NCBI GenBank assembly: GCA_963971285.1
Contig: OZ020248.1
Span: 24,325,873-24,389,872, forward strand
Origin: Astropecten irregularis
Taxonomy: Eukaryota; Echinodermata; Asteroidea; Paxillosida; Astropectinidae
Length of the DNA: 64,000 nucleotides
Direction of reading: 5' to 3'
Every line of letters starts with the position of its first letter. The stretch's first letter is position 1. The notes under the pieces were generated by a model that searched no databases, was not told the DNA's origin, and saw only the letters and a program-made list of their open reading frames with translations. Positions 4,411 to 63,620 of the stretch are shown here, piece by piece. Both the position numbers and the translations under genes were made by a program.

Positions 4411-4782
4411 TAAAAGGTAGTATCATACTTTGGTTGGAACTGAAACAGAAATTTTCACAGATTTACCTATAACTTACAGGGTATAAAGATGGTGATAGTA
4501 GAAACATACCGTTAAAATGTTTCTGCATGAAATGCTATATTCATCCAGAAAAGAGAAGAAAAAAACAATAAATTGGCCAAAATTATTTTTGACGTTTTAA
4601 AGATAAAAAAGCAAAGGTTTTAAAAAATACTGTCGCCGTTTTCCACTGTTTCCTCAAAAAGTGCATGTGCACCGTATGGAACTGATATTTTCACAGATGA
4701 CTGTTACTGTATCTTCCTGGAAAGTTTTGCCCATGAATCTGTATTTCTTGGACAAAAACCAAATTATTATATTGCCTTTAAA
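4411..4782 (-). mobile_element. Mite-A copy
   Basis: Reverse orientation: AAAGGTAGTATCATACTTTG at the left, a TTACAGGGTATAAAGATGGT block, CAAAAAGTG, and ATTGCCTTTAAA at the right end. Confidence 0.85.
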
Positions 4783-9217: not shown

Positions 9218-9578
9218 TTAAAGGTAGTATCATACTTTGGTTTTAATCAAAGAAATACAGATTCATGGGCAAAAATATCAAGACAGATACAGTAACAGTC
9301 ATCTGTGATAATTTCAGTCCCATACAGTGCCCACTGTTTGAGAAAACATTGAAAAACAGCCACTTCTTGGCCACAAGACCACAGTATTTCTGATCTTTTA
9401 AAATATCAAAAAGATTTTAGGTCATTGTTTTACTAATTACTAGCTAAATACACCATTTCAGGCGGAAATATTTTAATGGTATGTTTCTACTGCCACCATC
9501 TTCATACCCTGTAAGTTATACGTAATTCTGTGAACATTTCTGTTTTGGTTTCTTACCAAAGTATGATACTACCTTTAA
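9218..9578 (+). mobile_element. Mite-A copy, near-complete
   Basis: Both ends are intact: CATTAAAGGTAGTATCATAC and GTATGATACTACCTTTAA, with TTAA at both junctions, the expected duplication for a TTAA-targeting element. Confidence 0.9.
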
Positions 9579-9849
9579 TTCCAGTTTGCTCATGAAAATT
9601 CATTGTCCTTTCAAACCAATATAAATCACCACCCCAAAAAAAATAAAAATGAAATCAATTGTCTAAAAAATAAACAGTCGACAGCTTGCCCTGAAAAAAA
9701 AAAAGCAAAATTGTGAAAAATAATACTCAAGCTTAAATTTTATAATTTCGATGGATTTAATGAACCAAGTGATAATTAAAACTGTCATCAAATAACCATA
9801 AGAAAAACTGACTGGATTAATTGAAGTCATTGAAAAGTGAACAAGACAA

Positions 9850-39400: not shown

Positions 39401-42400
39401 AGTATGATACTACCTTTAAAGCATTATAAATAGGCACATCATATATTGACATTGTCAGTCATGATGTCCTTGACTTGCTTATTTCTAGACACAAATGTCT
39501 TCACAGAAGCACTAATCAATACTAACCTTCAATGCTGCTACAGATGGAGTGATAACTCATGTACGTGCATCATTGTGCATTGAGTGAGATCCTTGGTGTC
39601 GTGCAGCAGTTTAATGGGCAGAAAATGGGTTGTGTGTCTTCTAACTGGCACTATACTTGTGTTGATAGGTTGGCTGCGTCTATCTATCTTTAGGGCTTCA
39701 TACTGGATACTTCAGATGGCTGTTTATGGGTTTTTGACTGGCCTGAGCAAAGATACAGTCTGACAGTAGTTGACTTAAAGGAGACCACTTCAAAGGGTTG
39801 GATAACTCAGGTGGTAGCACCAGTATGGCAGTTTATGGGTTATATGGCTAAGGAAAGATGGTTGATTAAAAGGGATGATAATCATGCTGGATAGCCCAGA
39901 TGGCGTGTCAGCACTGGTGTGGCAGTTCATGGGTTGTTTGGCTTCTGAAATGACTGGCACCCAGAGCAAAGATGGTTCCCAGACTAAATGGAGGCCCCAT
40001 CATAGGGCTGGATACTAAGCCCAGACATGCTACAGTAGTGTAGGCGGTAGAGCAGTTTTATGGGTTATGGCTTCTGGCTGGCACCCTGAGTAAAGATAGT
40101 TGACTATAAGGAGGCCCATCATAGGGCTGGATAGCCCGTATGGTAGAGCACCAGTATTGCAGTTTAATGGGTTATATGGCATCTGACTGGCGCCCTGAGC
40201 AGAAATACATGGAGATCCATAGCTTCTGGCTGGCGCCCTAGGAACAGGTAGTTGACTGCAGAAAGGAGGGCACATCATAAAGCTTCACTGCTTCAATAGA
40301 TGGAAGAGCAATCTTCTACATTAGTCCATAGGTCCCACCCTGAGGCTAGATTCTTCATTTGGTCAAAATTTACATAGCACATCCTAAAAAAAACATCATA
40401 GTCAATACCCAAAGCAATTTCCTTGCTATGTATTCATTTTCAAAAAAGAAATTTCTCAGATGTTTACTAGCAAGATGTTTCAATCCAAAAATTTCTCTCA
40501 AAGGCTGAATGTCAGGGGGTAACCCTAACATTGAGGTAAAAAGCTCTAATGGATGAGAGGAGCAGACCCAAAGTGGGCACGGGAGAACAGGTTGCTAGGG
40601 GAACAGGTTGCCAAGGCAACAGGTTCGACATGCCACAGTGCTTGGGGCGCCGGAACGGAAGAATGATGAAAATTGAGAAGGTTTTAAGTGCCGATAAGGA
40701 GGGAAAGGTACAATGGGGAGTACTGGGATATTGGAAAGATCAGGAGGACGGTGATGATAATGGGAGTAATGATTCTGGTTGTCTAGGGAACAGGGATGGA
40801 TGAGCTAAGTTACTGGAAAGAGAAGATAATGAATGATGCAAAATCTTGAAAAGGGTGGAGATTGTGATCTGGAAAAAAGTCAAGAGACAAACCGATTCAA
40901 GTTACTCTCAAAGAGTTTACAAACAAACATGTGGCTCTTTTCAAAACCTCGGCTATGGCTCCAGCTTTGGTTCTTGCTTTGGCTTTGGCTCCGGCTCCAT
41001 TCTGTTTACCCATTTTACTTGAAAGTAGCAGGTACGAAAATAGAGGCTTATGGCTATGGCTGGGAAGTAGAAACTCCATTGTGAACATGAGAAAACCACA
41101 GCCTGTATTTTTAGCTCCTTGATGACAGGTATGTGGTCATTTACATGTAACAATAATGCCCAATTCCTAAAATTAGATTCATCAGACTAATTTTTGTTGT
41201 ATCCGGCAGATGAGCAGACGGAAAATAATCGATATTTTTGCCCCTGTTTTACGTTACGTGTCTCTTCAGTATTTTGCTATTGCGTCTATATCAGCCTTGT
41301 TGACATAATAGAAGCTCCATTCTGCCACAGCTGGTGGCGATCAGCCCATGATGAAACAAGTCTTAAAAAACGGATGTGATCTGCTCTAGCAAAATGGGGA
41401 ATAAGTGTGAGGGAAGTGGGTTTTCATTTGGTAATCATGTGTTAATGTACATGTATTATGGCATATCGGCCATCACACATTTTTGTGATGTGCGATGTCC
41501 CTCCAGCACCATCATTCTTTGTCGACTTGTGCGTATGATAAGCATAGTTCAACTTCATTTGTGAATAATGTGTAATGTGCGCCCCAAGTGTCATGTGTCA
41601 TGGCCACCACCGCATCTCGCCCTGGGTACAAAACCGAATTTATAGAATATGTCACAAGATGAAATTTACAGCATTCCATTAGTCAAAGACTGAAATACAC
41701 ATAAACAAACTCCCAATGCCTATAGTACATATGTACATGTACTGTATGTTTTCCCCTTGTCCATACCAATCAATAGTTAATTTACGGCCGTTTAATAAAC
41801 AAGGTCCACATGTGAAACCACTTATTTTTCCGCCCTCCTATTTTTACAGTTGGCAGTAGTAGTCATTCCGTTGATATTAAACAGTAACCCGAACCAACGG
41901 TCATCATCAGGCGATGTACTTTAGGGATACCATTTTATTCCAAAACGACGGTTAAAAATGGTAATTAAAAGTTAATGACTTGGTAAATGCCTTCAACATG
42001 TTCTTCCGGCTTTTGCTGACGATGACGTAGAGCATTTATCTTGTTGCCACAACGGATCGTACGGAATGGCCGAGGTTGGACGAGGGTGAACTTTAATTGC
42101 TGCCAGTAAACCGTCGCCCGGGAGATAGATTTCTGTTGACGAGGTATGTCAATAGAGGGCACTCTTTGCCGGGTCATTGAACTCAGTGGTGGCGTTAAAC
42201 TTTTTGAACTGCTCGAGCCAGTTAAGTGCTGCCTCGTGCTAGGCATCTGATTCTCATGAATGTACAGGACATGTACATATGTATCATGTACATGCAGGAG
42301 GGTGAATCCCATTGGGTGTTACGTCCCCTCGTCAAGGCATATTTTATTCATGGAAACTTTTGCAAATCTTTATTTATGATGCTCACAGTTTTCCTTTTAA

Positions 42401-45175
42401 TAATACATTTTCTGCCCTTTTTCTGTACTTTTTAGGATTTGCACATGATGTTTTGCACTTTCGAGTGCAAGATTTGTCCTGCTTTTGTATGATTTGGGGT
42501 AGTTTTGTTTGTCTTGTATTTAAAGGTAGTATCATACTTTGGTTTTTATCAAAGAAATACAGATTCGTGGGCAAAAATATCAAGGAAGATACAGTACCAG
42601 TCATCTGTGAAAATTTCAGTCAAATACGATGCTCACTTTTTGAGAAAACAGTGAAAAACGAGTCAGAGTCAGAGTCACACTCAGAAAAAGTGAAAACCCG
42701 TAGAGAAAAAAAAAGTCTATGAAGAAAATGTCAAGGACCCTCCCCCTCACCTCCCCCACCCCCCTTTTCTCGGCAAAAAATGCACTTTTGGCATTTTAGG
42801 AAACACAATTTTGTTTTTAAATCACTTCAATTTTTAGGCAGATCTCTCCTTTGAGAAAAACAAAATTCAACGAAAAACAGCTGAATCCATTGGGTCATTG
42901 ACCTGGGCATGGGGCCGCAGGTGTTACAGCGAGACGTGCTGTCATGTTATGGATAATTAATTGTACATTCTGTACATGTATGCATTGACATGTTGGGGCT
43001 TTCCGAGGGGAGGAGAATTGTCAACATCTTCACTCCTTCGCTGCCGTTTCTAACTCTGTCGATGTTGCTCATCATTTTAAAATCAAACACCATTTTAATT
43101 TTGTTTAAAGGTAATATCATACTTTGGTTTTTGTCAAAGAAATGCAGATTCATGGGCAAAAATATCAAGGAAGATACAGTTACAGTCATATGTGAAATTT
43201 CAGTCCCATACATTTTGAGAAAACATTGAAAAACAGCCACAGTATTTTTAAAATCTTTACACCGTTGTTTTTTTTTCTTTAAAAGATCAAAATTGTTCTT
43301 GGTCATTGGTTTTACTCTTTCCTGGATAAATAGGCCCTGCAGCATTTCAGGCAGAAAAATGTTAACAGTATGTTTCTACCATCACCATCTTCATACCCTG
43401 TATTACATGTAGTTTTCATCAGAGGCTGTCATGGCTATGTACAAAACTAAAATTGAGATTTTCAGAGTTCAGATTGTTTATGCCCCTGTCAGTTGTTTTT
43501 ACATATGTATATGTTTATCATTGGTCTATTAGCACTCTGCACTTGTGCTAAAAAAGCACACCGGATCTCAGACAAACATTGCAACGTGTGGTAGGCGTGA
43601 TTGGGTGCGCGTGCATGCATGGTGTACACTAGTTATGTGTGCGAGTCAATATTTGTCTGACATTCAGGGATTTTGTACATGTATGCACGCGCTGGCCAAA
43701 TCACTCGTGTGACGTCATTAGTGCGGAGCGCTATTCCATCCCTGACATACATGACATAATGAGGAAATGTATAACTTGTTTCATTGAACAATCTCACATT
43801 GTTTGTTTGTTTGTTTGTTTGTTTGTTTGTTTGGGTATCAATATCAATTGGTACTCAGAAATATGGATACATCGTATTGTGTGGGAGGGAGGATGTTGCT
43901 GATGTAATCCCCCCTCCCCCTCCCACACCCTCCCCCTCACCGCAAAAAAATCCAAACAAAATCAGCAGGGAAATGTCCCATATCGTCCCCTCTGGATCAC
44001 CACTCATGCGGAGGATGGGTCCGCTGGCATATGCAAACGTGACATTTATCAAGTGCTCTTGATAAACCTTTGCCAACCACCCTTTCTGATGACCCCTTCC
44101 CTACTGGCTCCCCACAGTGATACATGCTCATTAATAATTTGACAGGCTACTTAGTGAAAGGCGGAGTGGGGGCTGCTTTCTGGATTATTCATCGTCAGAT
44201 TGAATGTTTGAAATATTTAAATTCGCCCGACAATGTGTCAGGACTGCAATAATAAAGGAAAAAAAATGATAAATTCATCATCTTGTTTTTCTTTTATTAA
44301 AAAGCCGCATCCTCTTTGAGTGACCCCCATGTACTGTTTCTCAGGTTGCAGCATTGTTAATGCTGCACTTATCGATAAAATGATCCTTGGGATATAGCAG
44401 TACATGTATGTGTTTGGTTTCATTGACTTCTGGCTGCCAAAGGAATAAAGATAATTGACTAATTATGGACATCACCAATAAAGGGCTGGATTATTTAGCT
44501 CAGTTGGTAATAGAGCGCTGGTACGGTATTCCGGAGGTCACTGGTTGGAATCCTGCTACAGTAACTTTTTCTTTGTTCACTTTTAAAAAACATCTTCTTT
44601 TTAAAAACATTTTTAATCCTTAACCTTCTGCATAAAAAATAAATAACAACAACAATAACATTAGCAACAAGAACAATTGGTCAGATGGTTTTTTAATTTC
44701 ATAATTTCATAAAAGTTTGATTCAAAAATTGAACTTTTGACATTTCAGTATTTGGTCATAATACCATTCAGTTAAGTTGGACCCCCACGTACTAACACTC
44801 TATACATGTAGTGATTTTAACTCAATATTATACACACTTCAAAAAGACTATTTAAAGGGAAGCCATTTTTGATTCTCTACATTTCGTTCTTTATTCAGAA
44901 CATCTTCAGGAATCGTCAGTCTATTCAGAAAATCTTCATTCCCATTAAAGGACGAAGTATAGAGAATCCAAAATGGCTTCCCTTAGTCTTTTTGGAGTAT
45001 TTTGAATACTGAATATTATCACTGGATCACCAAATAATAATTCTATTTTTTCCTCGTTTATTAATTAACCAGATACATGCTCATCAACTTCACCAAGAAT
45101 CCGAGTAAATACATGAAGCTCACTGCCGAAGAGGTTGCGTCGACGATCGACAGATTCTTTGACATCACAGCGTGA
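15383..45175 (+). CDS. EXOC7: Exocyst complex component 7 (Exo70), complete gene, 22 coding exons
   Basis: The spliced reading frame encodes 690 residues, against about 650-735 for vertebrate EXOC7. Exo70 is an exocyst subunit that tethers secretory vesicles to the plasma membrane through PI(4,5)P2 and Rho-family GTPases. Exons: 15383-15433, 18245-18310, 19010-19109, 19872-19956, 20080-20185, 21181-21301, 21968-22012, 22600-22781, 22949-23013, 23380-23432, 23684-23787, 24470-24574, 25379-25498, 26205-26303, 27154-27213, 27574-27643, 28091-28156, 28622-28742, 29369-29464, 30369-30489, 38718-38851, 45073-45175. All junctions are GT-AG and the phase closes at every step. Seen: an N-terminal helix with FIRDSL, then FEERL, AVLTVFP, NMPRDGTVHELTSN, IFLLNNYHYILKSLE, and a C-terminal FTKNPSKYMK in which K669 and K672 align with the rat PI(4,5)P2-binding K632/K635. 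Residues 253-300 form a basic, Ser/Thr-rich linker, the variable region of the family. Introns 20 (8.2 kb) and 21 (6.2 kb) are swollen by repeats. Confidence 0.95.
16251..16274. repeat. Poly-G run
   Basis: A run of over 20 G at the junction of two parts of the foldback arm; the partner arm has a shorter C run at 16820-16832, so the homopolymer length has drifted. Confidence 0.9.
16664..16784. mobile_element. 121-bp Harbinger-like element nested in the foldback arm
   Basis: Left end GGCCCTGTTTGTTT, right end AAACAAACAGGGCTT, flanked by TTA (16661-16663 and 16785-16787). The opposite arm of the foldback lacks it (CTAACCTAG), which confirms a later insertion. The TTA duplication and GGCCCTGTTTG ends fit PIF/Harbinger MITEs. 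Confidence 0.8.
17518..18244. other. EXOC7 intron 1, remainder
   Basis: Repeated TAGGCCTACATGTAGGCCTA palindromes near 17700-17920 and ACATGTACATGTACATG near 18160; no exon. Confidence 0.5.
18245..18310 (+). CDS. EXOC7: EXOC7 exon 2 (residues 18-39)
   Basis: TTTCAG|GGAGCAG to ATG|GTAAAA; phase 0 in and out. It encodes LTFIRDSLNKSSQMTTNM, the most conserved stretch of the N-terminal coiled coil. Confidence 0.93.
18418..18785. mobile_element. Mite-B copy
   Basis: Starts TTTTAAAGGGAGCATATAGG; contains GAGTCGGGTTTTCGCTAGTT, TTGAGCTCAAATTTTCACAG and CAGACAAAGTGTGAGTGC, and ends TGTGACCTTTACC. Related copies: 35212-35582 and 49668-50029. Confidence 0.7.
19010..19109 (+). CDS. EXOC7: EXOC7 exon 3 (residues 40-73)
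   Basis: GACAG|GTGACT to AAGA|GTATCC. It reads FEERLGMLEQNILPVH and LQKLQK, the second part of the N-terminal coiled coil; it ends one base into codon 73. Confidence 0.93.
19500..19620. repeat. Family-J fragment (GTCGGTCGG)
   Basis: GGACAGGGTCGGCGGC, A- and T-runs, then GGGTCGGTCGGAAATGAAAC. It shares its motifs with the inverted-repeat element at 50517-50815. Confidence 0.5.
19700..19850. mobile_element. Family-I inverted-repeat element (empty-site copy)
   Basis: GTGTCCCAAATCTCTGGCTG on the left and CGGTCGCAGCCAGAGACTCG on the right, with CATAGACTTGTG inside. The copy at 38925-39165 (opposite orientation) has an extra element at that internal point. Confidence 0.7.
19872..19956 (+). CDS. 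EXOC7: EXOC7 exon 4 (residues 73-101)
   Basis: CCCCAG|ATCTCT to GCTGG|GTGAGT. It encodes NLSNTLCVFDDVLSHH and ends two bases into codon 101. Confidence 0.94.
20080..20185 (+). CDS. EXOC7: EXOC7 exon 5 (residues 101-136)
   Basis: TTTTCAG|AGCTGG to AAAGCC|GTGAGT. It encodes GLEQYLSNIQLIEDAKNFF followed by an acidic NPSSPDF turn; phase 0 out. Confidence 0.95.
20336..21130 (+). repeat. Tandem duplication with partial third copy in EXOC7 intron 5
   Basis: GTTCATCGTATCAATCTTTT recurs at about 20338, 20705 and 21060, giving units of about 365 and 355 bases. Copy 1 and copy 2 share GGGGATTGTTTCAACAGATA or its one-base variant and CCATAATAGACTGGGCTTG. The third copy breaks off just before exon 6. 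Each unit starts TTTTTTTCAGAGAATC, an acceptor-like site. Confidence 0.9.
21181..21301 (+). CDS. EXOC7: EXOC7 exon 6 (residues 137-177)
   Basis: CTTGCAG|ACATCG to GATGAAG|GTTGGT. It encodes LQNEFRVLLSRHGQPVPP and LDQITAEDE. A degenerate tandem triplication sits just upstream in intron 5. Confidence 0.95.
21425..21610. repeat. Fold-C copy
   Basis: AACTGCTGCAAACTGCTCCT, ATGCTTGAAATTAGGAGAGG, TTTCGATCC, then the inverted half TTTGAGAAAGATCCTTGTAG, GTCAGGCCCTCCTAACTCCA. Confidence 0.75.
21615..21870 (-). repeat. SINE S1, reverse copy
   Basis: Starts GTGAACAAAGACAAATTGAC, TGGAGTGGGATTCAAAGC, includes CAACTGAGTTATCTAGCTC, ends AGCAATGCTGCAACATGAGA and GGGGATCACTCATGG. Confidence 0.8.
21968..22012 (+). 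CDS. EXOC7: EXOC7 exon 7 (residues 177-192)
   Basis: A 45-base micro-exon, TTTACAG|ATTTTG to CCTG|GTAAGT, reading DFASDNVSLSLSQMP. It is accepted because its phase (1 in, 1 out) joins exons 6 and 8 exactly and it matches the acidic connector before the DLTEIAKWL helix. Confidence 0.85.
22262..22405 (-). repeat. SINE S2, reverse fragment
   Basis: AAAGCGTCTTGCCCAAGGAC, ATGGCTGGATTCGAACCC (B box) and GACCACTAGGCCACCTGAAT mirror the plus-strand SINE at 45364-45735. Confidence 0.75.
22600..22781 (+). CDS. EXOC7: EXOC7 exon 8 (residues 192-252)
   Basis: TACCCAG|AGAGTG to GTG|GTCAGT. It encodes MEDLTEIAKWLKDHSKS, FIEIYHSTRSHILKKSVEFL and the KEHLRKNS helix. Confidence 0.95.
22949..23013 (+). CDS. 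EXOC7: EXOC7 exon 9 (residues 253-274, linker)
   Basis: CCTCAG|ACGGCT to AGACC|GTAAGT. It encodes the basic linker VHKIKDTPKGRTVSNLRP, which aligns with the KRKDTPTK region of vertebrate EXOC7, where isoforms differ. Confidence 0.88.
23100..23290. repeat. Inverted repeat with hammerhead-like core
   Basis: Read minus, CTGATGA at 23218-23212 is followed by a potential ACTAG/CTAGT stem and GAAAC at 23092+100 (23192-23188), then GTTCGGAC. A mirrored GTCGAAACGTTGAGACCTAA lies at about 23234. The repeat spans from the CACTTCTTATG block to AATAAGAAGTGC. Confidence 0.5.
23380..23432 (+). CDS. EXOC7: EXOC7 exon 10 (residues 274-292, linker)
   Basis: CATCCAG|GGTTGT to ACTT|GTAAGA. A short Ser/Lys-rich exon (VVARKGSSASQTSKGET) placed by phase continuity (2 in, 1 out). 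Its low-complexity, likely disordered product makes it a candidate for alternative splicing. Confidence 0.8.
23533..23628. mobile_element. Short inverted-repeat element
   Basis: GAGTCAACAGCGCACGCGCA on the left and TGCGCGTGCGCTGTTGACTC on the right, about 95 bases in total, rich in alternating CG/CA that could form Z-DNA or a cruciform. Confidence 0.75.
23684..23787 (+). CDS. EXOC7: EXOC7 exon 11 (residues 292-326)
   Basis: CCACAG|CCGGTA to ATGCAG|GTAGGG. It ends the linker and enters the helical rod with LDSEIENYLYCISGLLKLMQ. Confidence 0.93.
24242..24378. mobile_element. Mite-D relative
   Basis: GGGGCCAATTTCATAAAGC and TTGATTAAATTGGCCCC enclose paired GCGACGCGTCGCA and CTGCGACGCGTCGTAAG. 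Confidence 0.8.
24470..24574 (+). CDS. EXOC7: EXOC7 exon 12 (residues 327-361)
   Basis: TTTCAG|AGTGAG to GGAGAG|GTGAAA; phase 0/0. It encodes LIPGEHQRKTFDKIIERA and the following helix. Confidence 0.95.
24695..24790 (+). repeat. SINE S1 tRNA-like head
   Basis: TAGGCTGGATAGTCCAGTTG, GGTACGGTATTCCGTAGGTC, GGTTCGAATCCCGCTCCAGT. Mutated A box; not a functional tRNA. Confidence 0.75.
24918..25262. repeat. Fold-C, one complete and one half copy in tandem
   Basis: GAACTGCTGCAAACTGCTCA, GCTTGGAGTTAGGAGGGCC, then AAAAAGATCATGCTAGGATC; a second ATGCTTGAAGTTAGGAGGGC starts near 25168 and ends GACAAGAGGACAAGAACATG. Confidence 0.75.
25379..25498 (+). CDS. EXOC7: EXOC7 exon 13 (residues 362-401)
   Basis: CTTTCAG|GCAATT to CTACAG|GTAAGC; phase 0/0. 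It encodes AVLKHDYTAVLTVFPVAKHL, a diagnostic Exo70 motif. Confidence 0.96.
25800..26170. repeat. GACATAGAATGACTGAGTAG minisatellite
   Basis: About eighteen diverged copies of a unit near 20 bases (GTGACATAGAATGACCGAGT type) ending 35 bases before exon 14. The minus-strand frame reads a degenerate LLGHSMSLLSHSMS peptide. Confidence 0.9.
26205..26303 (+). CDS. EXOC7: EXOC7 exon 14 (residues 402-434)
   Basis: ATGCAG|GGCACG to GTCAAG|GTGAGT; phase 0/0. It encodes RSKLPTLIASLETTGAKALE. A minisatellite lies just upstream. Confidence 0.96.
26580..26981 (+). pseudogene. Unidentified coding-like ORF remnant in EXOC7 intron 14
   Basis: A 133-codon frame open from the TAA at 26577 to TAG at 26979-26981 has no ATG, but its composition (GC-richer than the intron) and peptide look coding: RKLSQTLLEGTILNGPEEE, PRAKKPKINGQQRNRLSDED, YRFVRGLALPLQALVAKK, FPLPTPPKGLEYRQEIKTTW. 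A PRAKKPK nuclear-localisation-like motif is visible. I do not recognise the family. It may be the 3' end of a transposon ORF or a fragment of another gene; an alternative terminal EXOC7 exon would need a phase-compatible acceptor that I did not find. Confidence 0.5.
27154..27213 (+). CDS. EXOC7: EXOC7 exon 15 (residues 435-454)
   Basis: TCTCAG|AACGAT to AGCAAC|GTAAGT; phase 0/0. It encodes NMPRDGTVHELTSN, almost identical to vertebrate EXOC7. Confidence 0.96.
27574..27643 (+). CDS. EXOC7: EXOC7 exon 16 (residues 455-478)
   Basis: AAACAG|GCGTTG to CGAG|GTATTA. It encodes ALTFLEHLLDYVDTTAAML, a core helix. Confidence 0.93.
27940..28050 (+). repeat. Repeat fragment with GCAGCCGAAACGTTG motif
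   Basis: CTTGATAAAGGCTAGCAG, TCTGCAGCCGAAACGTTGCT: a GGCT/AGCC stem precedes GAAAC, as in the hammerhead-like core noted elsewhere. Confidence 0.4.
28091..28156 (+). CDS. EXOC7: EXOC7 exon 17 (residues 478-500)
   Basis: TTGCAG|ACCAAG to GTCG|GTGAGT. It encodes a variable loop (DQGYSSKTLDPEANKKK) followed by VSIYV. Confidence 0.9.
28622..28742 (+). CDS. EXOC7: EXOC7 exon 18 (residues 500-540)
   Basis: CTTCAG|CTAAGG to GAGAG|GTTGGT. It encodes GAIFLLNNYHYILKSLE, another diagnostic Exo70 motif. A 76-bp tandem array starts about 45 bp past the donor. Confidence 0.96.
28786..29270 (+). repeat. 76-bp tandem array in EXOC7 intron 18
   Basis: CCTTCTACAT starts units at 28801, 28877, 28953, 29029, 29105, 29181 and 29257. 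Each has TGTCTGCTTGTTTGTCTGTT and GGTTGCTCACCTCAGT. As 76 is not a multiple of 3, the array is open in all three frames with the same Cys-rich peptide, which is an artefact of the repeat. Confidence 0.95.
29369..29464 (+). CDS. EXOC7: EXOC7 exon 19 (residues 540-572)
   Basis: CATCAG|ATCGGA to AAGAG|GTTAGT. It encodes SELMKLVVISTPDIETHYAE and a charged helix. Confidence 0.93.
29684..29790 (-). repeat. SINE S1 fragment, reverse
   Basis: CCTGCAACATGAGAAACAGT and GGGGATCACTCAAGAATATG match the S1 head in reverse. Confidence 0.6.
29796..30160 (+). mobile_element. Mite-A copy, complete
   Basis: ATTAAAGGTAATATCATACA to GTATGATACAACCTTTAA with the central GATCTTTTAAAAGATC palindrome. Confidence 0.9.
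30369..30489 (+). CDS. EXOC7: EXOC7 exon 20 (residues 572-612)
   Basis: ACTCAG|CTGGAA to TTCAAG|GTAAGA. It encodes SWNKVLSHILEVNKP and KLKDKERQQIKDKFK. An internal possible donor, GAG|GTGAAC at 30399/30400, would end it after SHILE in phase 0 and could pair with the exon-20-like sequence at 31786. Confidence 0.94.
30690..30835 (-). repeat. SINE S1, reverse copy
   Basis: TACTGTACCGGTGCTCTACC, AGCTGAGCTACACAGCCC (A box), then CAGTCAGAAGCCATGAAACC. Confidence 0.75.
31349..31602. mobile_element. Mite-D copy
   Basis: CCTAATTTCATAGAGCTGC on the left and GCGGCTCTATGAAATTGGCC on the right, with inverted AAGCAC and TGCTTAAGC motifs. Confidence 0.7.
31786..31848 (+). CDS. EXOC7: Candidate alternative EXOC7 exon 20b (duplicate of the exon 20 tail)
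   Basis: Bases CTACCAG|GAACAA to TTCAAG|GTCAGA frame a 63-base, phase 0/0 exon ending VKDKKERQQIKDIFK. This closely repeats the end of exon 20 (LKDKERQQIKDKFK) 1.3 kb upstream. Added after full exon 20 it would insert 21 residues. Joined to exon 20 shortened at 30399 it would replace the last 30 residues of exon 20 with 21. The open frame, the splice sites and the amino-acid-level similarity argue for use. Transcript evidence is missing, so it could also be a decaying duplicate. Confidence 0.6.
32195..32340 (+). repeat. tRNA-derived repeat of a different head type
   Basis: GATGAGCTCTGCATTACTCA, GGGTTCGAATCCCACCTGAG (B box), and an inverted echo AGTATGCCGTGCTCATCTAC downstream. Confidence 0.55.
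32550..32700. repeat. Pyrimidine-rich CCCCACC tract
   Basis: About 150 bases dominated by CCCCTCCCC and CCCCACCCC on the plus strand; the minus strand is G-run rich and could fold into G-quadruplexes. Confidence 0.75.
33700..33850 (-). repeat. SINE S1, reverse copy
   Basis: GCGGGATTCGAACCTGCG and GCTCTATCTACAAGCTAAGC, then AGCCCTATGTTACACC. Confidence 0.7.
33875..34120. repeat. Mite-D relative, diverged
   Basis: AGGGGCCGATTTCACTAACG and AAGCCCAAATCCATCGC start it; GCTTGGTCTAATTTAGTATACGGCCCG-like sequence ends it. Arms are weakly paired. Confidence 0.4.
34397..34640. mobile_element. Mite-D copy, complete
   Basis: GGGGCCAATTTCATAAAACT and ATGAAATTGGCCCC close about 240 bases, the reverse complement arrangement of the 2670 copy. 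Confidence 0.85.
35212..35582. mobile_element. Mite-B copy with intact ends
   Basis: TTAAAGGGATGGTACAGAAT and GTTCTGTACCATCCCTTTAA are inverted. The interior shares CACAGTATAATGGTGATGAT with Mite-A and CACTATTTTCTCGTGACCCA with the 18418 copy, so Mite-A and Mite-B are related. Confidence 0.85.
35878..36343. mobile_element. hAT-type MITE with perfect 8-bp target duplication
   Basis: Ends CAGGGTTG and CAACCCTG; subterminal ATGATTTAAATCA-type repeats; flanked on both sides by AATAGAAG (35870-35877 and 36344-36351). An 8-bp duplication with CAGGG ends is characteristic of hAT elements. There is no transposase; the 36007-36270 minus-strand frame is low complexity. Confidence 0.92.
36400..36634 (+). 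mobile_element. Mite-A copy, internally deleted
   Basis: CATTAAAAGTAGAATCATAC to AAGTATGATACTACCTTTAA in only 235 bases. It abuts another Mite-A start (AGGTAATTTCATAC) at the shared TTTAAA. Confidence 0.8.
36761..37035 (+). mobile_element. Mite-A copy, 3' truncated
   Basis: AAGGTAACTTCATACTTTGG, GAAATGGAGATTCATGGGCC, TTTTGAGAAAACAGTGAAAA, AGGCAGAAAAATTTTAACA; the right terminus is absent. Confidence 0.75.
37410..37685. mobile_element. Fold-C, complete inverted-repeat copy
   Basis: Left arm ATGCTTGGAGTTAGGAGGGC, CTAGCAGGATATTTATCAAA, TAATGACAAGAACAAGAAC; right arm GTTCTTGTCCTCTTGTCATT, TTAGCC, GATAAAGATCCTGTTAGGAT, GAGTCAGGCCCTCCTAACTC, then a 3' tail GACACTTGAGCAGTCTGC-like to TTTATT. The tail AAACTGCTGCAAACTGCTCA also appears reversed in other copies, so it belongs to the element. 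Confidence 0.85.
38320..38660. repeat. Family-E repeat (pair with 11610-11900)
   Basis: GGCCAAGGCTAAGGCCTGAA, CAGCCTGGCTTCTGGATGCT, GATCAATGTGGACTCAATCT, GACACAGCAGGGGCTT in the same order as at 11.6 kb. It ends 60 bases before exon 21. Confidence 0.75.
38718..38851 (+). CDS. EXOC7: EXOC7 exon 21 (residues 613-657)
   Basis: TTCCCAG|GGCTTC to GACAA|GTAAGT. It encodes GFNQDFEELYKTQKSYAIP, matching the vertebrate GFNDGLEELCKIQKAWAIP block, and ends two bases into codon 657. Confidence 0.96.
38925..39165. mobile_element. Family-I element carrying a nested inverted-repeat insertion
   Basis: GTCCCAAAGACTGGCTGCAA ... CACACAAGTCTAT is interrupted at about 38960 by an element with ends TAGCCTTTTTGAAGTATGG and CCATACCTTTAAAAGGCTA (to about 39104), with inner arms CACAATAGGAGGGC and GCCCTCCTATTGTG. 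The host resumes GAAATGGCTGCAGTCACTAG. The uninterrupted arrangement is seen at 19700-19850. Confidence 0.8.
39172..39419 (+). mobile_element. Mite-A copy, 5' truncated
   Basis: Begins inside the family at CACTTTTTGAGAAAACAGTG and runs to GTATGATACTACCTTTAA. Confidence 0.85.
39540..40345 (+). repeat. Tandem array of tRNA-like A-box units
   Basis: Repeated GGGCTGGATAGCCCAGATGG-type heads, each followed by CACCAGTATGGCAGTTTATG, GGGTTATATGGCTTCTGACT, GGCGCCCTGAGCA and AGTTGACTATAAGGAGGCCC. At least four full units of about 125-145 bases are visible and older ones upstream. The A-box half of S1 is kept while the GGTTCGAATC B box is lost. Confidence 0.8.
40346..42518. other. EXOC7 intron 21, no exon recognised
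   Basis: Holds a GGCAACAGGTTGC-type short repeat near 40590-40625, GGCTTTGGCTCCGGCTCC-like imperfect repeats at 40950-41000, and a GC-richer stretch at 42000-42230 whose minus-strand frame is open but unrecognised. Confidence 0.45.
42519..42660 (+). mobile_element. Mite-A, left half
   Basis: TTAAAGGTAGTATCATACTT to TTTGAGAAAACAGTGAAAAA, then unrelated sequence. Confidence 0.85.
43104..43401 (+). mobile_element. Mite-A copy, right end missing
   Basis: TTTAAAGGTAATATCATACT to CACCATCTTCATACCCTGTA; lost beyond that point. Confidence 0.85.
43530..43745 (+). mobile_element. Family-G element (also nested at 48913)
   Basis: TAGCACTCTGCACTTGTGCT, CTCAGACAAACATTGCAACG, GAGTCAATATTTGTCTGACA, then GTGACGTCATTAGTGCGGAG and CGCTATT. 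Confidence 0.75.
43800..43833. repeat. (GTTT)n microsatellite
   Basis: Eight perfect GTTT units. Confidence 0.95.
44285..44585 (+). repeat. SINE S1, fullest copy
   Basis: TTTGAGTGACCCCCATGTAC, GGTTGCAGCATTGTTAATGC, GATCCTTGGGATATAGCAG, then AGGGCTGGATTATTTAGCTC, GGTAATAGAGCG and GGTTGGAATCCTGC, closing with TTTTTCTTTGTTCAC. The A and B boxes are near consensus but interrupted. Confidence 0.8.
44845..45000. mobile_element. Short inverted-repeat element before exon 22
   Basis: AAAAAGACTATTTAAAGGGA, AGCCATTTTTGATTCTCTAC on the left; ATAGAGAATCCAAAATGGCT, TCCCTTAGTCTTTTTGG on the right; about 155 bases. Confidence 0.85.
45073..45175 (+). CDS. EXOC7: EXOC7 exon 22 (residues 657-690 and stop)
   Basis: AACCAG|ATACAT through TGA at 45173-45175. 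It encodes FTKNPSKYMK and DRFFDITA, the conserved C-terminus with the phosphoinositide-binding basic patch. No clear AATAAA was identified in the next 200 bases, so the 3' end of the transcript is unplaced; a SINE begins near 45364. Confidence 0.95.
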
Positions 45176-52255: not shown

Positions 52256-52598
52256 CCCGACTCGATCAGCCCTCCTCCTCACAATGCATTTCAAATGTCA
52301 GGAGTGGAACGAACCTGTGGCTGCATGGCCCAGCGCAGCACCGACCGACCGTATCATCACGGTATAGTGTCACATATCGCAGCATGCGGGGTCCAATATA
52401 TCCACTCTCTAGCTCGGTCACCGTCAGCCTGTCATTTACTCTCAAACACGAGATGACATCTATCCCACTCACGGTTCTTTTACAATCACTCCATCTCCTG
52501 ATGCTTAACTCCACATTTTGTTGCCGTTTTTTTCCTGATCTAACAATCTCGTCTCTTCAATTAAAGCAAGTCATGAGCCATTTTGAGTTCACTTTTCT
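52256..52598. other. No gene seen
   Basis: Open frames on both strands but no recognised product. Confidence 0.4.
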
Positions 52599-52975
52599 TT
52601 AAGGTACTATCATACTTGTACTTTGGTCGCAATACCAAAACAGAAATCTTTACAGATGCACCTGTAATTTACATGGTATAAAGATGGTGATGGTAGAAAC
52701 ATACTGTTAAAATTGTTCCATCTGAAATGCTGTATTTATCCAGAAAAGAGTAAAACCAATGAGCAAAAAACAATCTGATCTTCGGAAGATCAAAAATCCT
52801 GTGAAAATATTTTAAAATACCATGGGCATTTTCACTCTTTTCTTTAAAAAGTGGGCATCGTATGAGACTGGAAATTTCACAGATGACTGTTACTGTATCG
52901 ACCTTGATATTTTTCCCCATGAATCTGCATTTCTGTTACAAAAACCAAAGTATGACATGTATGATATTACCTTTA
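52599..52975 (-). mobile_element. Mite-A copy
   Basis: TTAAGGTACTATCATACTTG, ATGGTATAAAGATGGTGATG, GATCTTCGGAAGATC, ATGATATTACCTTTA. Confidence 0.85.
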
Positions 52976-53312: not shown

Positions 53313-53683
53313 TTAAAGGTATCATACTTTGGTAGCATGATACCAAAACAGAAATTTTCATAGTTTTACCTACTGTATAACATACAGGGTATAAATATGG
53401 TGATGGTAGAAATATGCCATTGAATACTTTATGTTTGAAATGCTGTATTTATCCAGAAAAGAGGAAAACCAAAGACCAGACACAATTTTGATCTCGGGGT
53501 GAGATCAAAACTTCTGTGAATAGATTTGAAAATACTGTGAGCATTTTTGGCTGTTTTCCCCAAAAGTGGGCACCATATGGGACTGGAAATTTCACAGATG
53601 ACTGTTCATCTTTCTTGATATTTTAGTCCATGGGTCTGCATTTCTTTGGCAAAAACCCCAAATCTGAAGTTTCCTTTATTTAA
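53313..53683 (-). mobile_element. Mite-A copy
   Basis: TTTAAAGGTATCATACTTTG, CAGGGTATAAATATGGTGAT, TTGATCTCGGGGTGAGATCA; the right end TTTCCTTTATTTAA is worn. Confidence 0.85.
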
Positions 53684-53845: not shown

Positions 53846-54113
53846 TAATGCTGAGATTGCTCTCATGCTGAGTTTGCTCTCATGCCGAGTTTGCTCTCGT
53901 GCCGAGTTTGCTCTCATGCTGAGTTTGCTCTCATGGTTAGAGTCTGTTCTCGTGCCGAGTTTGCTATCCTGCCGAGTTTGCACTCATGCCGAGTTTGCTC
54001 TCAGTCTCATGCTGAGTTTGCTCTTGCGCTGAGTTTGCTCTCATGCCAAGTTTGCTCTCATGGTTAGAGTCTGCTCTCGTGCCGAGTTTGCTATCCTGCC
54101 GAATTTGCTCTCA
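53846..54113 (+). repeat. 17-bp GAGTTTGCTCTCATGCC minisatellite (left part)
   Basis: About fourteen units of TGCTGAGTTTGCTCTCA. The array continues at 57387-57420 after the 3.27-kb element, so it was the insertion target. Confidence 0.9.
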
Positions 54114-54124
54114 CCCTTATAGAA

Positions 54125-54590
54125 AATTAAGCTTGCGGCAAGCTTATTAAGGTTGCGGCAAGCTTAAAGAAGCTTGTACGGTACTTCTGCAAGCTCACGA
54201 CAAGCTCCTGGCAAGCCTGCAAGCTTATGCAAGCTTACCAACAAGCTTGCGGCAAGCTTGTATTGATCAGCGCGCAGCTTGCTGTCGCCTTGCAAGCTTG
54301 CCAGCAACATGGCTGCAAGCTTGCAAGCTTGCCAGCAACATGGCTGCAAGCTTGCAAGCTTGCCAGCAACATGGCTGCAAGCTTGCAAGCTTGCCAGCAT
54401 CATGGCTGCAAGCTTGCAAGCTTGCCAGCAACATGGCTGCAAGCTTGCAAGCTTGCCAGCAACATGGCTATAAGCTTGCATGGTTGGCTGCAAGCTTGCA
54501 ACCAAGTTGCTGTCAGCTTGCAAGCTTGCCAGCAATATGGCTGCAAGCTTGCAACCAAGTTGCTGTCAGCTTGCAAGCTTGCCATGAGAA
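54125..54590. repeat. 31-bp CAAGCTTGC subterminal array (left)
   Basis: CCAGCAACATGGCTGCAAGC recurs every 31 bases (for example 54301 and 54332), joined by CTTGCAAGCTTG. The long KLASLPATWLQAC-type open frames on both strands are by-products. Confidence 0.93.
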
Positions 54591-55839
54591 ACATATGGAT
54601 CATGCAAACAATTAACTGCACAATTAGGACCCAACCAGACAGAATTATCAAACACCCTTTTTGTTTAATTACTTTGATAATTAATTAAGTAATTTGATTT
54701 TGAAAGTTTTCCCAGACATAAAAAGCATAAAAAGACATAATTAAATTTGGATATGATCAACCTGCATGGCCAATTAATTAATCAAGAGTTCTATCTTCTA
54801 TTAAATTAATTCTTCCTATGGAATTCATGGCAATTAAGTTTTTTAATCAAGAGTCCTGCATACATATACACATAAATTATTAGTACCAATGAAAAGTTTA
54901 GTTATTGTATTTTGAAAATTGTCCCAAATTCCCATGAGGATTCAAAGAAAATTGTTTAAGGTCTAGCTCTACATAATTTACTGATCTGCATTTATTTTAT
55001 AATTTAAAGTAATGTCACAGCAGCAGGCTGTGCAGTGAGGGTTCAGCTAGTATTACAATATATAGTTCATGATTTGACAAGCTTTTGGATGACTTGTTTT
55101 TTTTTGTGTTTTAAATTGTCAAGTGCCTTGTTATTGTATTCACCACTATTTATTATTAGTTAGGATTATTAGTCATTCATTTATCTCTGTATTATTTTTG
55201 AAGATTTTTCATTTAGGTTTTTCATTGAAAGAGCTTGCTCAGGTCATATGCATATTCATTGTTTTAGCCAGCACAGTGTTTCTTCCAATAAACATGTGTG
55301 CAAGAGGATTAGACAGTTAATGTAAACAAACTTATCTTAGGAATGTCACAGGTGGGTGTCAAGTGACCACACTGACCTCTGGTATGCCACATGTATACAA
55401 GTAGCCATTTTGTCAGCACTGTCCACTGTCACAGTGCATAACCATGGACATGATGGAGGTAGTACTCAAAGCCAACATTTTCTTCTTCCTAATTCACCCT
55501 GATTGAGACCCTATAGAGACCCCAACTTGGTAAGTTAACCTTTCTTTATATTTTTTTATTGTTTGCTAGTAACTTTGATTATAGTTTTGACCATTATTTC
55601 AAGTGATTTTGGCCAGCGAGGCCTACTTTTGTTTGGATAAATTGTGCTTTATTACGTGTGTATTTATGCATTGTGCAAAGTTGCATTTGTTATGTACACA
55701 AAGACAAGTTGTCTTATTGTTTTTCTCTGTTCTGTATTATTAAATTGCAGATATATAGCTGAATCACATGTGCCACTACATTCAAGTGAACCTGTTTCGT
55801 AATTCGGTGGAATATATTGAGAATATACATCTTTTTGGA

Positions 55840-56520
55840 ATTCTGGAGTGAAGCTGGAGTTTGCCAACAAAGAGAAGCAACTGAAGCTAGAGGAGTTGCA
55901 GGAGACCACCAAGGTTGAAGCAATTAATGAGGATAGAGAGGGGTAAAAAGCTGGAACAACGTACTACAGCCAGCAAGTGCTGCAGAGTCTCATCACCAGA
56001 GTGAAATTTAGATGGATGACAATATCGTCAGTTCCTGAAAAGTGCATCTCCCAACTAGCAGAGTTAAATAGAGAACAGCTGCAATATCCCCTGTGCCGAA
56101 ATTCATTCAATTCGCTAATCAACAGCCAACCCCTTGATGCAGACATCACCAAGCTAAACTTCCTTCATCAGTATGTAACCGGAAAGCCACAGCATCTCGT
56201 CGAGCACTACCTGCTCATTGGCACGGAGGAAGCATACATCAGGGCAAGAGAGGTGGTGACGGAGAGATACGGAAACAGCAGCGTAGTCAGTACAGCTTTC
56301 ACGAGTAAGCTGTGACAGTGGCCAAGGATATCACCAAGAGATTCAGCGGGCCTAAGAGATTTCTCTGATTTTCTGGAGAAAGTCCATGCAGCACGAGCCA
56401 CCACAGTGTGGTACCACACCTACATGTAGCCTGGGAGTGTTCGACTATGCCAGCGAGCGCACCTTATCAAGAAGTTGCCATTCAATCTTGAGGCCAATTA
56501 GTGGCGGGACAAGATTGACG
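55840..56520 (+). pseudogene. Decayed BEL/Pao-type gag fragment (DUF1759-like) inside the transposon
   Basis: A coiled-coil segment (FANKEKQLKLEELQE) near 55865 is followed, after a stop codon, by a frame at 55977-56315 with FNSLINSQPLDADITKLNFL, YVTGKPQHLVEHYLL and AREVVTERYGNSS. This is the order of the DUF1759 domain of BEL/Pao retroelement gag and domesticated relatives (LxYLxxxLxGxA, YxxAxxxLxxRYG). After a frame change, SPRDSAGLRDFSDFLEKVH near 56331-56385 continues it. Stops and frame changes show it is broken. No protease, reverse transcriptase or LTR was seen. Confidence 0.7.
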
Positions 56521-56914
56521 TTTTTAAGAATTTTAGAATTTCAGGTTTTTATGTATACCTGCTGTGTACAAAAGTATAGGAAATTTCAGCGTTTTCTTGG
56601 TGTTTTTGGATTTTGTGTGTGTGTGGCCACTAACATCCCTGTAAATGTGAACAAGTGCTTCAATAAATTTTTTGTAAACTTTATTATAATAAAATTGCCC
56701 AGAGTTTCATTGCAGTTAAAATCTATTTTCTCCACCTGTTAATGACCCTGCAAGGTATGTACGATGTACATTGTTATTCTTGGAAAACTTTACAGGTACA
56801 TAGGGATATGTATGTAGCTGCAAGGTTGCCAATTCTGCTGCTTGTCTGCAACAGAGTTTGCCATTTGTTAGGTTAATTAAATAATGCTTGGGCAATAGCC
56901 TGCCTGCCTGCAAT

Positions 56915-57365
56915 TAGCTTGGATGTTTACATATCTGCCAGCTTGCAAGTTTATTTGCAAGCAAAGAAAACCTTCTATTGCAAGCTTGTGGCAAGCTTGC
57001 TACAAGCGTGCAGATATAATTTTCGTATGGGGATACAAGCTTGCTGCAAGCATAATACAAGCAGCTTGCTAGTGAGCAAGCTTGCCGGCAAGCACCAGGA
57101 TAAAAACTGCAAACTTGAAAACAAGCTTGCTGCAAGCTTGCCGCAAACTTGAAAACAAGCTTGCTGCAAGCTTGCCGCAAACTTGAAAACAAGCTTGCTG
57201 CAAGCTTGCCGCAAACTTGAAAACAAGCTTGCCGCAAGCTTGCCCTCATTTGCATTTTTGGAACCCTGCAAGCTTGCTGCAAGCATAATACCAGCTTGCC
57301 GGCAAGCATAATACCAGCTTGCCGGCAAGCTTGCCGGCAAGCTTGCTGTAAGCTTGCCGGCAAGC
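56915..57365. repeat. 34-bp CAAGCTTGC subterminal array (right)
   Basis: ACAAGCTTGCTGCAAGCTTG with CCGCAAACTTGAAA repeats at 57121 and 57155, then GCCGGCAAGCTTGCCGGCAA palindromes. Confidence 0.93.
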
Positions 57366-57420
57366 ACCATTATATTTCTATAAGGGCATGCTGAGTTTGC
57401 TCTCATGCTGAGATCGCTCT

Positions 57421-60639: not shown

Positions 60640-61900
60640 TGTATCCTCTGGCTATTACCCTAGTAGTGCCCCTGTCTATTAATTGCCTGAGTGTCCCTGA
60701 CTATCACCCTGTGCCTAGCTGGCAATTGCCCTAGTCCCTGACTATATATTGCCCCAGTACCCCTGACTATCACCCTGTGCCTAGCTGGCAATTGCCCTAG
60801 TCCCTGACTATATATTGCCCCAGTACCCCTGGTTATCACCCTACTGCCTAGCTGGCAATTGCCCTTGTGCCCCTGACTATATTGCCCCAGTACCCCTGAC
60901 TATCACCCTAGTGCCTAGCTGGCAATTGCCCTAGTCCCCCTGGCTATTACCAGAATACCCCTGACCATCACCCTTGTGCTCCTGGTTATTGCTCAAGTGC
61001 CACTAACTATCACCCCAGTGCCCCTAACTATCACCCCAGTGCCCCTAACTATCACCCTAGTGCCCCTGACTATCACCCCAGTGCCCCTAACTATCACCCT
61101 AGTGCCCCTGACTATCACCCTAGTGCCCCTAACTATCACCCCAGTGCCCCTAACTATCACCCCAGTGCCCCTAACTATCACCCCAGTGCCCCTAACTATC
61201 ACCCCAGTGCCCCTAACTATCACCCCAGTGCCCCTAACTATCACCCCAGTGCCCCTAACTATCACCCCAGTGCCCCTGACTATCACCCCAGTGCCCCTAA
61301 CTATCACCCCAGTGCCCCTAACTATCACCCTAGTGCCCCTAACTATCACCCCAGTGCCCCTAACTATCACCCCAGTGCCCCTGACTATCACCCCAGTGCC
61401 CCTAACTATCACCCCAGTGCCCCTAACTATCACCCCAGTGCCCCTAACTATCACCCCAGTGCCCCTAACTATCACCCCAGTGCCCCTAACTATCACCCTA
61501 GTGCCCCTGACTATCACCCTAGTGCCCCTAACTATCACCCCAGTGCCCCTAACTATCACCCCAGTGCCTCTAACTATCACCCTAGTGCCCCTGACTATAG
61601 TGCCCTTACTATCACTCTCATGCCCTGACTATCACCCCTAGTTCTAGTGCCCCTGACTATCACCCTAGTGCCCCTAACTATCACCCCAGTGCCCCTAACT
61701 ATCACCCCAGTGCCTCTAACTATCACCCTTAGTGCCCCTGACTATAGTGCCCTTACTATCACTCTCATGCCCTGACTATCACCCCTAGTTCTAGTGTGCC
61801 TGACTATTACCCTAGTGCCCCTGACTATCACCCTCAGTGATGCCTAGTGCCCCTAACTATCACTCTTATGCCCTGACTATCACCCTAGTGTCCCTGACTT
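60640..61900. repeat. 21-bp GCCCCTAACTATCACCCCAGT minisatellite
   Basis: Roughly 50 units; 60976-61600 is nearly regular, the flanks are degenerate, and 61600-61780 contains a larger duplicated block (TAGTGCCCTTACTATCACTC twice). With a 21-bp unit both strands stay open (VPLTITP and GVIVRGT repeats), which explains the long frames without implying a gene. Confidence 0.95.
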
Positions 61901-62929: not shown

Positions 62930-63259
62930 TTAAAGGTAGTATCATACTTTGGTAGCATACTGAAACAGAAATCTTCACAGATTTACCTTACAGGGTATAA
63001 AGATGATGATGGCAGAAACATACCTATACCGCTAACATTTTACTTCCTGAAATGCTGTATTTATCCAGAAAAGAGTAAAATCAATATTCCAAACTGCCAG
63101 AAACAATTTTTATCTTTTGAAGATCAAAAATAATGGTGAAAAGATTTTAAAAACACTGTGGGCGTTTTTCACTGTTTTCTCCAAAAGTGGGCACCGTATG
63201 GGACTGTAAATTTCACAGATGACTGTTACTGTATCTTATTGATAAGAAGTTACCTTTAA
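62930..63259 (-). mobile_element. Mite-A copy (left of a head-to-head pair)
   Basis: TTAAAGGTAGTATCATACTT to GAAGTTACCTTTAA. Confidence 0.85.
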
Positions 63260-63620
63260 AGGTAATATCATACTTTGGTTTTTGTCAAAGAAATACAGAT
63301 TCGTGGGCAAAAATATCAAGGAAGATACAGTAAAAGTAATCTGCGAAAATTTCAGTCCCATACGTTGCCCACTTTTTGAGAAAACAGCGAAAAACGGCCA
63401 CAGTATTTCTGAAGTGTTTTCTCTTTTATTTTTGATCTTTTAAAAGATCAAAAAGATTTTTGGTCGTTGTTTGACTAATTTCTGGATAAATACACCATTT
63501 CAGGCTGAAAAATTATAACGGTAGGTTTCTATCAGCACCATCTTCATACCCTGAAAGTTATACGTACATCTGTGAACATTTCTATTTTGGTCTCTTACCA
63601 AAGTATGATACTACCTTTAA
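63256..63620 (+). mobile_element. Mite-A copy (right of the pair), complete
   Basis: TTAAAGGTAATATCATACTT to GTATGATACTACCTTTAA. It shares the TTAA at 63256-63259 with the previous copy. Confidence 0.9.

Follow-up and report, generated by a model that had tools for sequence, protein, structure and literature searches.

The DNA stretch analysed here, called the window throughout, comprises 64 kb from the sea star Astropecten irregularis (C11:24325873-24389872 in a host genome of 475.7 Mb and 168 contigs). It contains an element, named family A, in which short inverted ends enclose two repetitive subterminal arrays, two interior segments and a decayed piece of a retrotransposon (Table 1). The element is well supported as a complete non-autonomous terminal-inverted-repeat DNA transposon of the animal CACTA (TRC) type. 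The 12-bp end sequence CCCTTATAGAAA has exactly two perfect occurrences in the window, which are the two ends in opposite orientation; with up to two mismatches there are 11 occurrences in total against 7.95 expected, the other nine being at chance level. Moreover, all 32 copies of the palindromic motif CAAGCTTG in the window fall within 54242-57345, on both sides of a 2.3-kb core that contains none, while 1.54 are expected and 100 shuffles gave at most 5. Both arms, taken as single-stranded DNA, fold far better than shuffled sequences (z = -11.28 and -11.37). In the core, the frame 55947-56312 matches DUF1759 (PF03564) with E = 6.3e-9, which passes the cut-off; the domain scan covered 65 of the 70 stop-to-stop frames of at least 25 aa (five array-internal frames were omitted) and gave besides DUF1759 just three weak matches (E 0.02-0.036). 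Transposase_21 is absent from the window element itself, as expected of a non-autonomous copy. The insertion target is a 17-bp ATGCTGAGTTTGCTCTC minisatellite, and excising the element together with one CA gives the best fit to its 17-bp register. The sequence-only reading, made without database searches, had described inverted ends, two different subterminal minisatellites, palindrome arrays at the ends and a decayed DUF1759-like segment between them, all of which are borne out, and its classification as a non-autonomous terminal-inverted-repeat transposon is confirmed by copies that have the same ends and share the retroelement piece.

These copies are dispersed over the host genome. The 18-base left end CCCTTATAGAAAATTAAG occurs exactly at 16 places and the 27-base right end at 18, and at 10 other loci 3,070 or more of the 3,273 bases are matched with 89-96% identity. 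There are at least 20 further family A copies, some of them truncated; these counts are lower bounds because 40 of 622 candidates were scored. Twenty loci (L012-L031) were retrieved with their flanks, as was L045 (C12:9774599), which is excluded from the counts as a probable segmental duplicate of L030. L030 (C12:9483063) and L045 (C12:9774616) lie in opposite orientation about 290 kb apart and carry an extra 5.6-kb insertion of equal length at the identical place, so they are probably an inverted segmental duplication. Among the 21 copies consisting of the 20 loci and the window copy, 16 keep both ends, and 13 of these 16, the window copy included, are flanked by an exact 2-bp target duplication (CT, GA, TT, AA, TT, TG, AA, TT, AA, CA, AA, TG and CA); when the right flanks were shuffled 10,000 times, the mean was 2.54 and the maximum 9. 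No pair among 23 copies (16 of family A and 7 of the sister family B described below) shares its flanks (>60% in 60 bp), and paralogous empty sites exist for six of the 23 (L019, L022, L025, L034, L038 and the window copy), with imperfections in L034 (one base differing at the junction) and L025 (two extra bases). A search for other copies with the same ends, which had been recommended on the basis of the window alone, was thus successful, and all 21 copies examined carry part of the retroelement piece: long terminal repeat (LTR) sequence is present in all of them and the whole DUF1759 stretch is kept in 17. No retroelement-free copy with family A ends was found among the ends searched.

The arrays are closely linked to the ends. 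A count in 12 of the retrieved A copies and the 7 B copies, which excluded eight A copies because their ends are damaged or they contain a large insertion, gives 12-19 CAAGCTTG for the left half of each copy and 14-24 for the right, always within 700 bp of an end. Genome-wide, the pattern of CCCTYAYRRAAA followed within 25 bases by AAGCTTGC, that is CCC ends plus motif, gives 57 matches at 48 distinct places and its reversed control gives none. The array pattern CAAGCTTGCNGCAAGCTTG occurs at 195 sites (control 0), and among the 50 sites listed, 33 belong to copies of A or B, 9 to the element on C1 (see below) and 4 to solitary end pieces (L048 and L049), while 2 lie beside ends on C10; the remaining C9:5703877 and C9:5703951 are at places not searched for ends. 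The expectation of the sequence-only reading that arrays should not stand apart from the ends therefore holds among the 50 listed sites, apart from the two C9 sites that remain. Other CCC ends with AAGCTTGC are found at C1:12194894, C11:15161383, C18:11519471, C19:5385096 and C22:4879264. In addition, L063 (C10:2877380) and C10:2883644 have identical 45-base family-A-like ends in the same orientation, 6.26 kb apart; L063 has a short array, without a second end in 5.4 kb or an open frame longer than 112 aa. At C8:19477932 (L064) there is B-like end sequence and no array. Three viral-contig matches to CCCTTATAGAAA followed by AAGCTTG were judged to be chance, as this is a 19-base gapped pattern searched in a very large collection. 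That the subterminal arrays are binding sites for transposon proteins may fairly be inferred from the analogy with plant CACTA elements.

Family B consists of seven loci (L032-L038) with the ends CCCTCACAAAAATGTAAGC and ...TTTTCGTAAGGG, all seven of which have 2-bp duplications (TA, AT, TA, CA, GA, TT and TA). Its copies are 96.4-100% identical to one another and about 80% identical to family A across element positions 517-1727. Over 3,123 bases, L032 and L033 show 100% identity, and their flanks differ, which indicates recent movement of family B. One B copy, L038, is inserted in a member of a dispersed repeat family of about 350 bp that also occurs in the window.

Transposase_21 (PF02992) has 15 matches in the host genome, 13 of them above the cut-off, and none in 14 control genomes. 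An intact open frame of 864 aa at C1:35872948-35875539 (Transposase_21, E = 1.4e-11) lies within a 12.4-kb element, C1:35871069-35883486, which has CCCTCACAAAAA at both ends and is flanked by a TA duplication. This element contains 30 and 15 copies of CAAGCTTG, confined to its two end regions, and its left end is 73% identical to that of family B over 464 aligned columns (E = 2.7e-75, arrays included). Judging from these features, it is the best candidate for the autonomous partner. For the autonomous version that the sequence-only reading had called for, there is thus a candidate: the same end architecture accompanies an intact transposase frame on C1, but no such element with the exact ends of family A was found. 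Two further stretches of 10 kb (L058 and L059, around C20:10903693 and C1:10655401) contain no CAAGCTTG, and since they may stop short of the element ends, both are kept as potential partners. The shorter stretches L050-L057 (3.2-3.5 kb each) are uninformative in this respect, as even L051, which lies inside the C1 element, contains no CAAGCTTG. On C11, short Transposase_21-type matches, several with stop codons, are clustered in a region of about 2.4 Mb (C11:19175361-21585676).

At the locus C11:19528177, a counterpart of the right interior lies next to a TRC-type end that has CAAGCTTG arrays, and no retroelement accompanies it, which suggests that the right interior is probably part of the transposon backbone. 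The locus matches element positions 2426-2465 and 2550-2849 (the second at 77.8%), contains no match in the 6.5 kb read to L039, an LTR stretch of the retroelement source discussed below, and has three pieces that match the interior of the C1 element. C11:21486371 resembles it in the search tables, other right-interior matches occur at C9:4820426 and C29:9972693, and about 107 bp of the right interior (56535-56645) occur alone at about seven other places. The left interior (54600-55008) has 31 matches, all in A, B or partial copies with LTR sequence, in a search in which all 30 candidates were scored. Moreover, a former right end lies inside the right array of family A, as AATTTTCGTAAGGG in L015, L016, L020, L028, L029 and L030 and as AATTTTCGTATGGG in five further copies including that of the window, that is in 11 of 21 copies under a strict pattern. 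It is of the CCCTTACGAAAAT type and resembles the right ends of family B and of the C11 locus; outward of it follow about 350 bp more of array and then the present end, so that it is buried in a right arm of the CCCTTATAGAAA type. Because this older right end lies within the right array, family A seems to have gained a new outer right end after having one already. As a tentative and so far rather doubtful extension, the CAAGCTTG arrays might be exchangeable end modules, such that recombination between arrays or end bypass swaps the outer ends and with them the partner transposase, family A being a product of this process. If true, end-module exchange lets non-autonomous copies change their partner transposase.

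The passenger in the core is derived from a retroelement whose DUF1759 gag we take to be of BEL/Pao type, a group that is to our knowledge confined to animals. Six retroelement stretches covering LTR and gag-side sequence were compared with the window piece. Five of them match its LTR at 74-77% identity and the sixth (L042) matches in two pieces, and in all six the similarity starts within three bases of the first base of the LTR (terminus TGTCAC). The gag region is matched at 78-83% by four of the six, the others being a 3' LTR stretch (L040) and LTR only (L044). L039 and L040 form an LTR pair, 99.88% identical over 828 bp, at either end of a stretch of about 7.7 kb at C20:16768157-16775888, which has similarity to the DUF1759 stretch of the window downstream of one LTR. 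Two stretches of L039 are missing from the window copy, one of about 290 bp that separates the matched LTR portion from gag and one of about 390 bp within gag; as judged by eye these gaps are off GT-AG boundaries, and an origin by splicing or from cDNA was rejected. The core frames scanned show no recognisable polymerase domain, and the window element has no second LTR. Of the four gag stops followed through 17 aligned copies (the window copy and L012-L027), two are the same throughout, a third reads TAA rather than TAG in L016 and the fourth is interrupted by a gap in L024; gag was thus already defunct when the family began to spread. At the right junction, the gag of family B extends about 56 bp further than that of family A, and therefore both families derive from one shared event and were eroded separately. 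The sequence-only reading had regarded the segment as a captured gag fragment in the manner of Pack-MITEs. What is present is a 5' LTR with part of gag, and the similarity runs from the LTR terminus to a point within gag, which fits a BEL/Pao element that integrated and was then partly deleted better than it fits such a capture. The rival, capture by template switching (gap filling or FoSTeST, as for Pack-TIRs), is in keeping with the absence of a 3' LTR, and mechanisms of this kind are described for animals in the accessible text of PMC8277862; however, capture has no reason to begin at the LTR terminus, as the left breakpoint does in all six comparisons. The extra gag of family B shows erosion after the shared event, but not the mechanism, and we consider capture improbable. 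As to the further claim that capture of this sort is unusual in animals, foreign sequence carried by terminal-inverted-repeat elements has already been described there, and the accessible part of the same source counts 370 Pack-TIRs in 100 genomes.

The repetitive arms themselves could suggest other origins. One is a foldback-type element, of which Drosophila FB and Galileo are examples, with mobility driven by the folding of its repeated arms; this agrees with the repetitive make-up of both arms and with their strong folding as single strands. However, the true inverted repeat is 12 bp long, and beyond it the units are of 31 and 34 bp and the arms align at about 66%; moreover, the 2-bp duplication and a Transposase_21 element with the same motif fit CACTA/TRC. 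With the duplication lengths of FB and Galileo also taken into account, a foldback origin appears very unlikely. Arrays of this kind can also spread as minisatellites, and two of the 50 listed sites (C9:5703877 and C9:5703951) are without an end search, so one could regard the arrays as a satellite that flanks unrelated sequence by accident and the ends as chance. This explanation is refuted by the copies, with their paired ends and target duplications at unrelated places, and by the distribution of the listed sites (33 in A or B, 9 in C1, 4 in solitary ends and 2 on C10), and deserves practically no credence. PiggyBac, suggested by the CCC start, was rejected, as its TTAA target does not occur at the insertion sites.

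The best explanation, which we hold with high confidence, is thus a non-autonomous animal CACTA (TRC) element that carries a BEL/Pao passenger and later obtained a new outer right end. Its mechanism may be pictured after the proposal for TNPA and TNPD of maize Spm. On each side, the CAAGCTTGC palindromes clustered in the subterminal region would be bound by proteins of the autonomous element, which would bring the two element ends together, and the transposase would cut at CCC...GGG and insert the element with a 2-bp staggered cut. A BEL/Pao retrotransposon would have integrated into the TRC element, and everything in it 3' of a point within gag would then have been deleted; with both ends still intact, the shortened element could continue to transpose. 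Family A would later have gained its new outer right end, the old one persisting within the right array as a relic. The binding and cutting steps, like a partnership with the C1 element, are inferred.

Several observations weigh against this explanation. Three of the 16 two-ended copies are without a clean 2-bp duplication: L012, whose right end is damaged, L025, with CC and two additional bases, and the diverged copy L031, where the duplication reads 3 bp. The left interior has no known TRC source among its 31 matches, and the C11:19528177 locus, read over 6.5 kb, shows only one end. One of the pieces that it shares with the C1 element may be a dispersed repeat because it also matches beside the C8 end. 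The ends of the C1 element resemble those of family B more than those of family A, and no autonomous element bears the exact A ends (left ends with up to one and right ends with up to three mismatches), so that cross-mobilisation of family A by the C1 element is put forward as a proposal. The 19 left ends with up to one mismatch comprise 18 in retroelement-carrying copies and one solitary truncated end, and the 21 right ends with up to three mismatches comprise 20 in such copies and one solitary right-end piece. Nor was a copy found with a complete retroelement or with an empty pre-insertion core, and for this reason only the start at the LTR argues for integration followed by deletion.

Table 1. 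Features of the family A element and repeat copies in the window (positions counted from the first base of the window)
Feature	Position	Strand	Remark
Whole element, family A	54114..57386	.	3273 bp; paired ends, target duplication, dispersed copies with differing flanks
Left terminal inverted repeat CCCTTATAGAAA	54114..54125	+	exact 12-bp match
Right terminal inverted repeat CCCTTATAGAAA	57375..57386	-	exact 12-bp match
Target-site duplication CA, left copy	54112..54113	.	CA on both flanks
Target-site duplication CA, right copy	57387..57388	.	CA on both flanks
Left subterminal array, CAAGC/GCTTG and CAAGCTTG motifs	54126..54584	.	17 CAAGCTTG
31-bp tandem unit, 6.2 copies	54289..54480	+	Tandem Repeats Finder, 97% matches
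Left interior	54600..55008	+	matches solely in family A copies and relatives
Decayed 5' LTR of BEL/Pao-type retrotransposon	55013..55846	+	starts at terminus TGTCAC
Gag remnant, truncated and internally deleted, with stop codons	55848..56518	+	comparison with retroelement stretches
DUF1759 (PF03564) match	56094..56306	+	residues 50-120 of frame 55947-56312
Right interior, probable backbone	56539..56962	+	retroelement-free counterpart at C11:19528177 without 56579-56662
Right subterminal array	56941..57365	.	15 CAAGCTTG
Relic of older right end	57018..57031	+	AATTTTCGTATGGG in window; AATTTTCGTAAGGG in six other copies
34-bp tandem unit, 4.0 copies	57109..57244	+	Tandem Repeats Finder, 99% matches
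17-bp ATGCTGAGTTTGCTCTC minisatellite, insertion target	53848..54113	+	resumes at 57387-57424
Copies of the ~350-bp dispersed repeat	715-1056, 4413-4788, 9218-9581, 29796-30160, 39173-39419, 43104-43400, 52597-52958, 53313-53678, 63256-63620, others		

The window also contains other repeats. The dispersed family of about 350 bp is present in at least nine copies in both orientations, which are mostly 70-90% identical. A large inverted repeat (15568-16310 and 16785-17523) has arms of about 740 bp with 92% identity and a spacer of about 475 bp, and there are a 21-bp minisatellite of 35.7 copies with several open frames on both strands (60996-61745) and a 76-bp tandem repeat of 6.5 copies with three open frames (28800-29292). 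A tRNA-like match at 24708-24780 (Rfam tRNA, 33.4 bits) has relatives elsewhere in the window and is perhaps a tRNA-derived short interspersed element. The open frame at 22560-22910 presumably resembles an exon of the exocyst Exo70 gene, and it has no Pfam match over the cut-off.

In the papers found, CACTA elements are described mainly from plants, and here a complete animal set, with a candidate autonomous element, two non-autonomous families and end arrays built on one palindrome, is found in one genome. Family B, with 100% identical copies at different places, has been active recently, and the role of subterminal clusters becomes directly testable in an animal system. Furthermore, a DNA transposon can multiply a dead retrotransposon fragment, whose copies repeat annotation may wrongly count as those of a retrotransposon. 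The old end buried in the right array is a tangible sign that an end was replaced.

The sequence-only reading knew of no described family to which the element belongs, and a literature search, which included CCCTTATAG together with 'transposon', turned up no description of this family. The kind, however, is a described one. TRC elements, the animal and fungal relatives of CACTA, have CCC-initial ends and a 2-bp duplication according to the accessible text of PMC1636069, and these two features were also the grounds for placing a Hydra element in TRC, according to the accessible part of PMC4298943. The present element is assigned to TRC because its inverted ends begin with CCC and it makes a 2-bp target duplication (13 of 16 in family A and 7 of 7 in family B, with paralogous empty sites for 6 of 23 copies), and Transposase_21 occurs in the candidate partner C1:35871069-35883486. 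In what is available of PMC1636069, SmTRC1 of Schistosoma mansoni and its relatives in Tribolium and Aedes share with it the CCC ends, the 2-bp duplication, empty sites, Transposase_21 in the autonomous element and shorter derivatives. However, SmTRC1 is described there with a 54-bp inverted repeat, AAAGGGGAAATAAAG as internal motif and a region of tandem repeats on its 3' side, whereas family A has a 12-bp inverted repeat followed by CAAGCTTG arrays at both ends; the term 'subterminal' is absent from the text of that source. Spongebob / EnSpm-4N1_HM of Hydra likewise has CCC ends and a 2-bp duplication and is assigned to TRC/CACTA, but its end is CCCAGCCAACATTGAC, and the accessible part of PMC4298943 mentions no CAAGCTTG arrays.

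Plant CACTA elements such as Spm/En and soybean Tgmt* resemble family A in that motifs in direct and inverted orientation are clustered asymmetrically in both subterminal regions (PMC2613891 and PMC8978399, in their accessible parts). For maize Spm, the accessible text of PMC2613891 states that TNPA recognises the subterminal repeats and that end cleavage by TNPD is proposed and unproven. The plant elements differ in that they start with CACTA, make 3-bp duplications and use another motif, whereas the ends here are CCCTTATAGAAA and the duplication is 2 bp in 13 of 16 copies and 3 bp in L031 alone; subterminal clusters of direct and inverted repeats are present at both ends in both. The sequence CCCTTATAGAAAA may resemble the Spm end. 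With BEL/Pao retrotransposons, the source of the passenger, the element has an LTR and a DUF1759 gag in common, and the source element at C20:16768157-16775888 has paired LTRs and such a gag, but in the window element gag is decayed and a second LTR and a recognisable polymerase domain are lacking. Long repetitive inverted repeats with the same unit at both ends, which presumably define foldback elements, are not seen here. Animal Pack-TIRs, of which 370 are counted in 100 genomes in the accessible part of PMC8277862, are likewise terminal-inverted-repeat elements that multiply foreign cargo by transposition; they are defined there by cargo that is not from transposable elements and has an unambiguous parental copy, whereas the cargo here is a retrotransposon piece, LTR plus gag, that starts at an LTR terminus. 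Animal CACTA elements, CACTA subterminal clusters and foreign sequence in animal terminal-inverted-repeat elements are already known, and the informative twists of the present case are the multiplication of a retrotransposon fragment by a DNA transposon and the old end buried in its right array.

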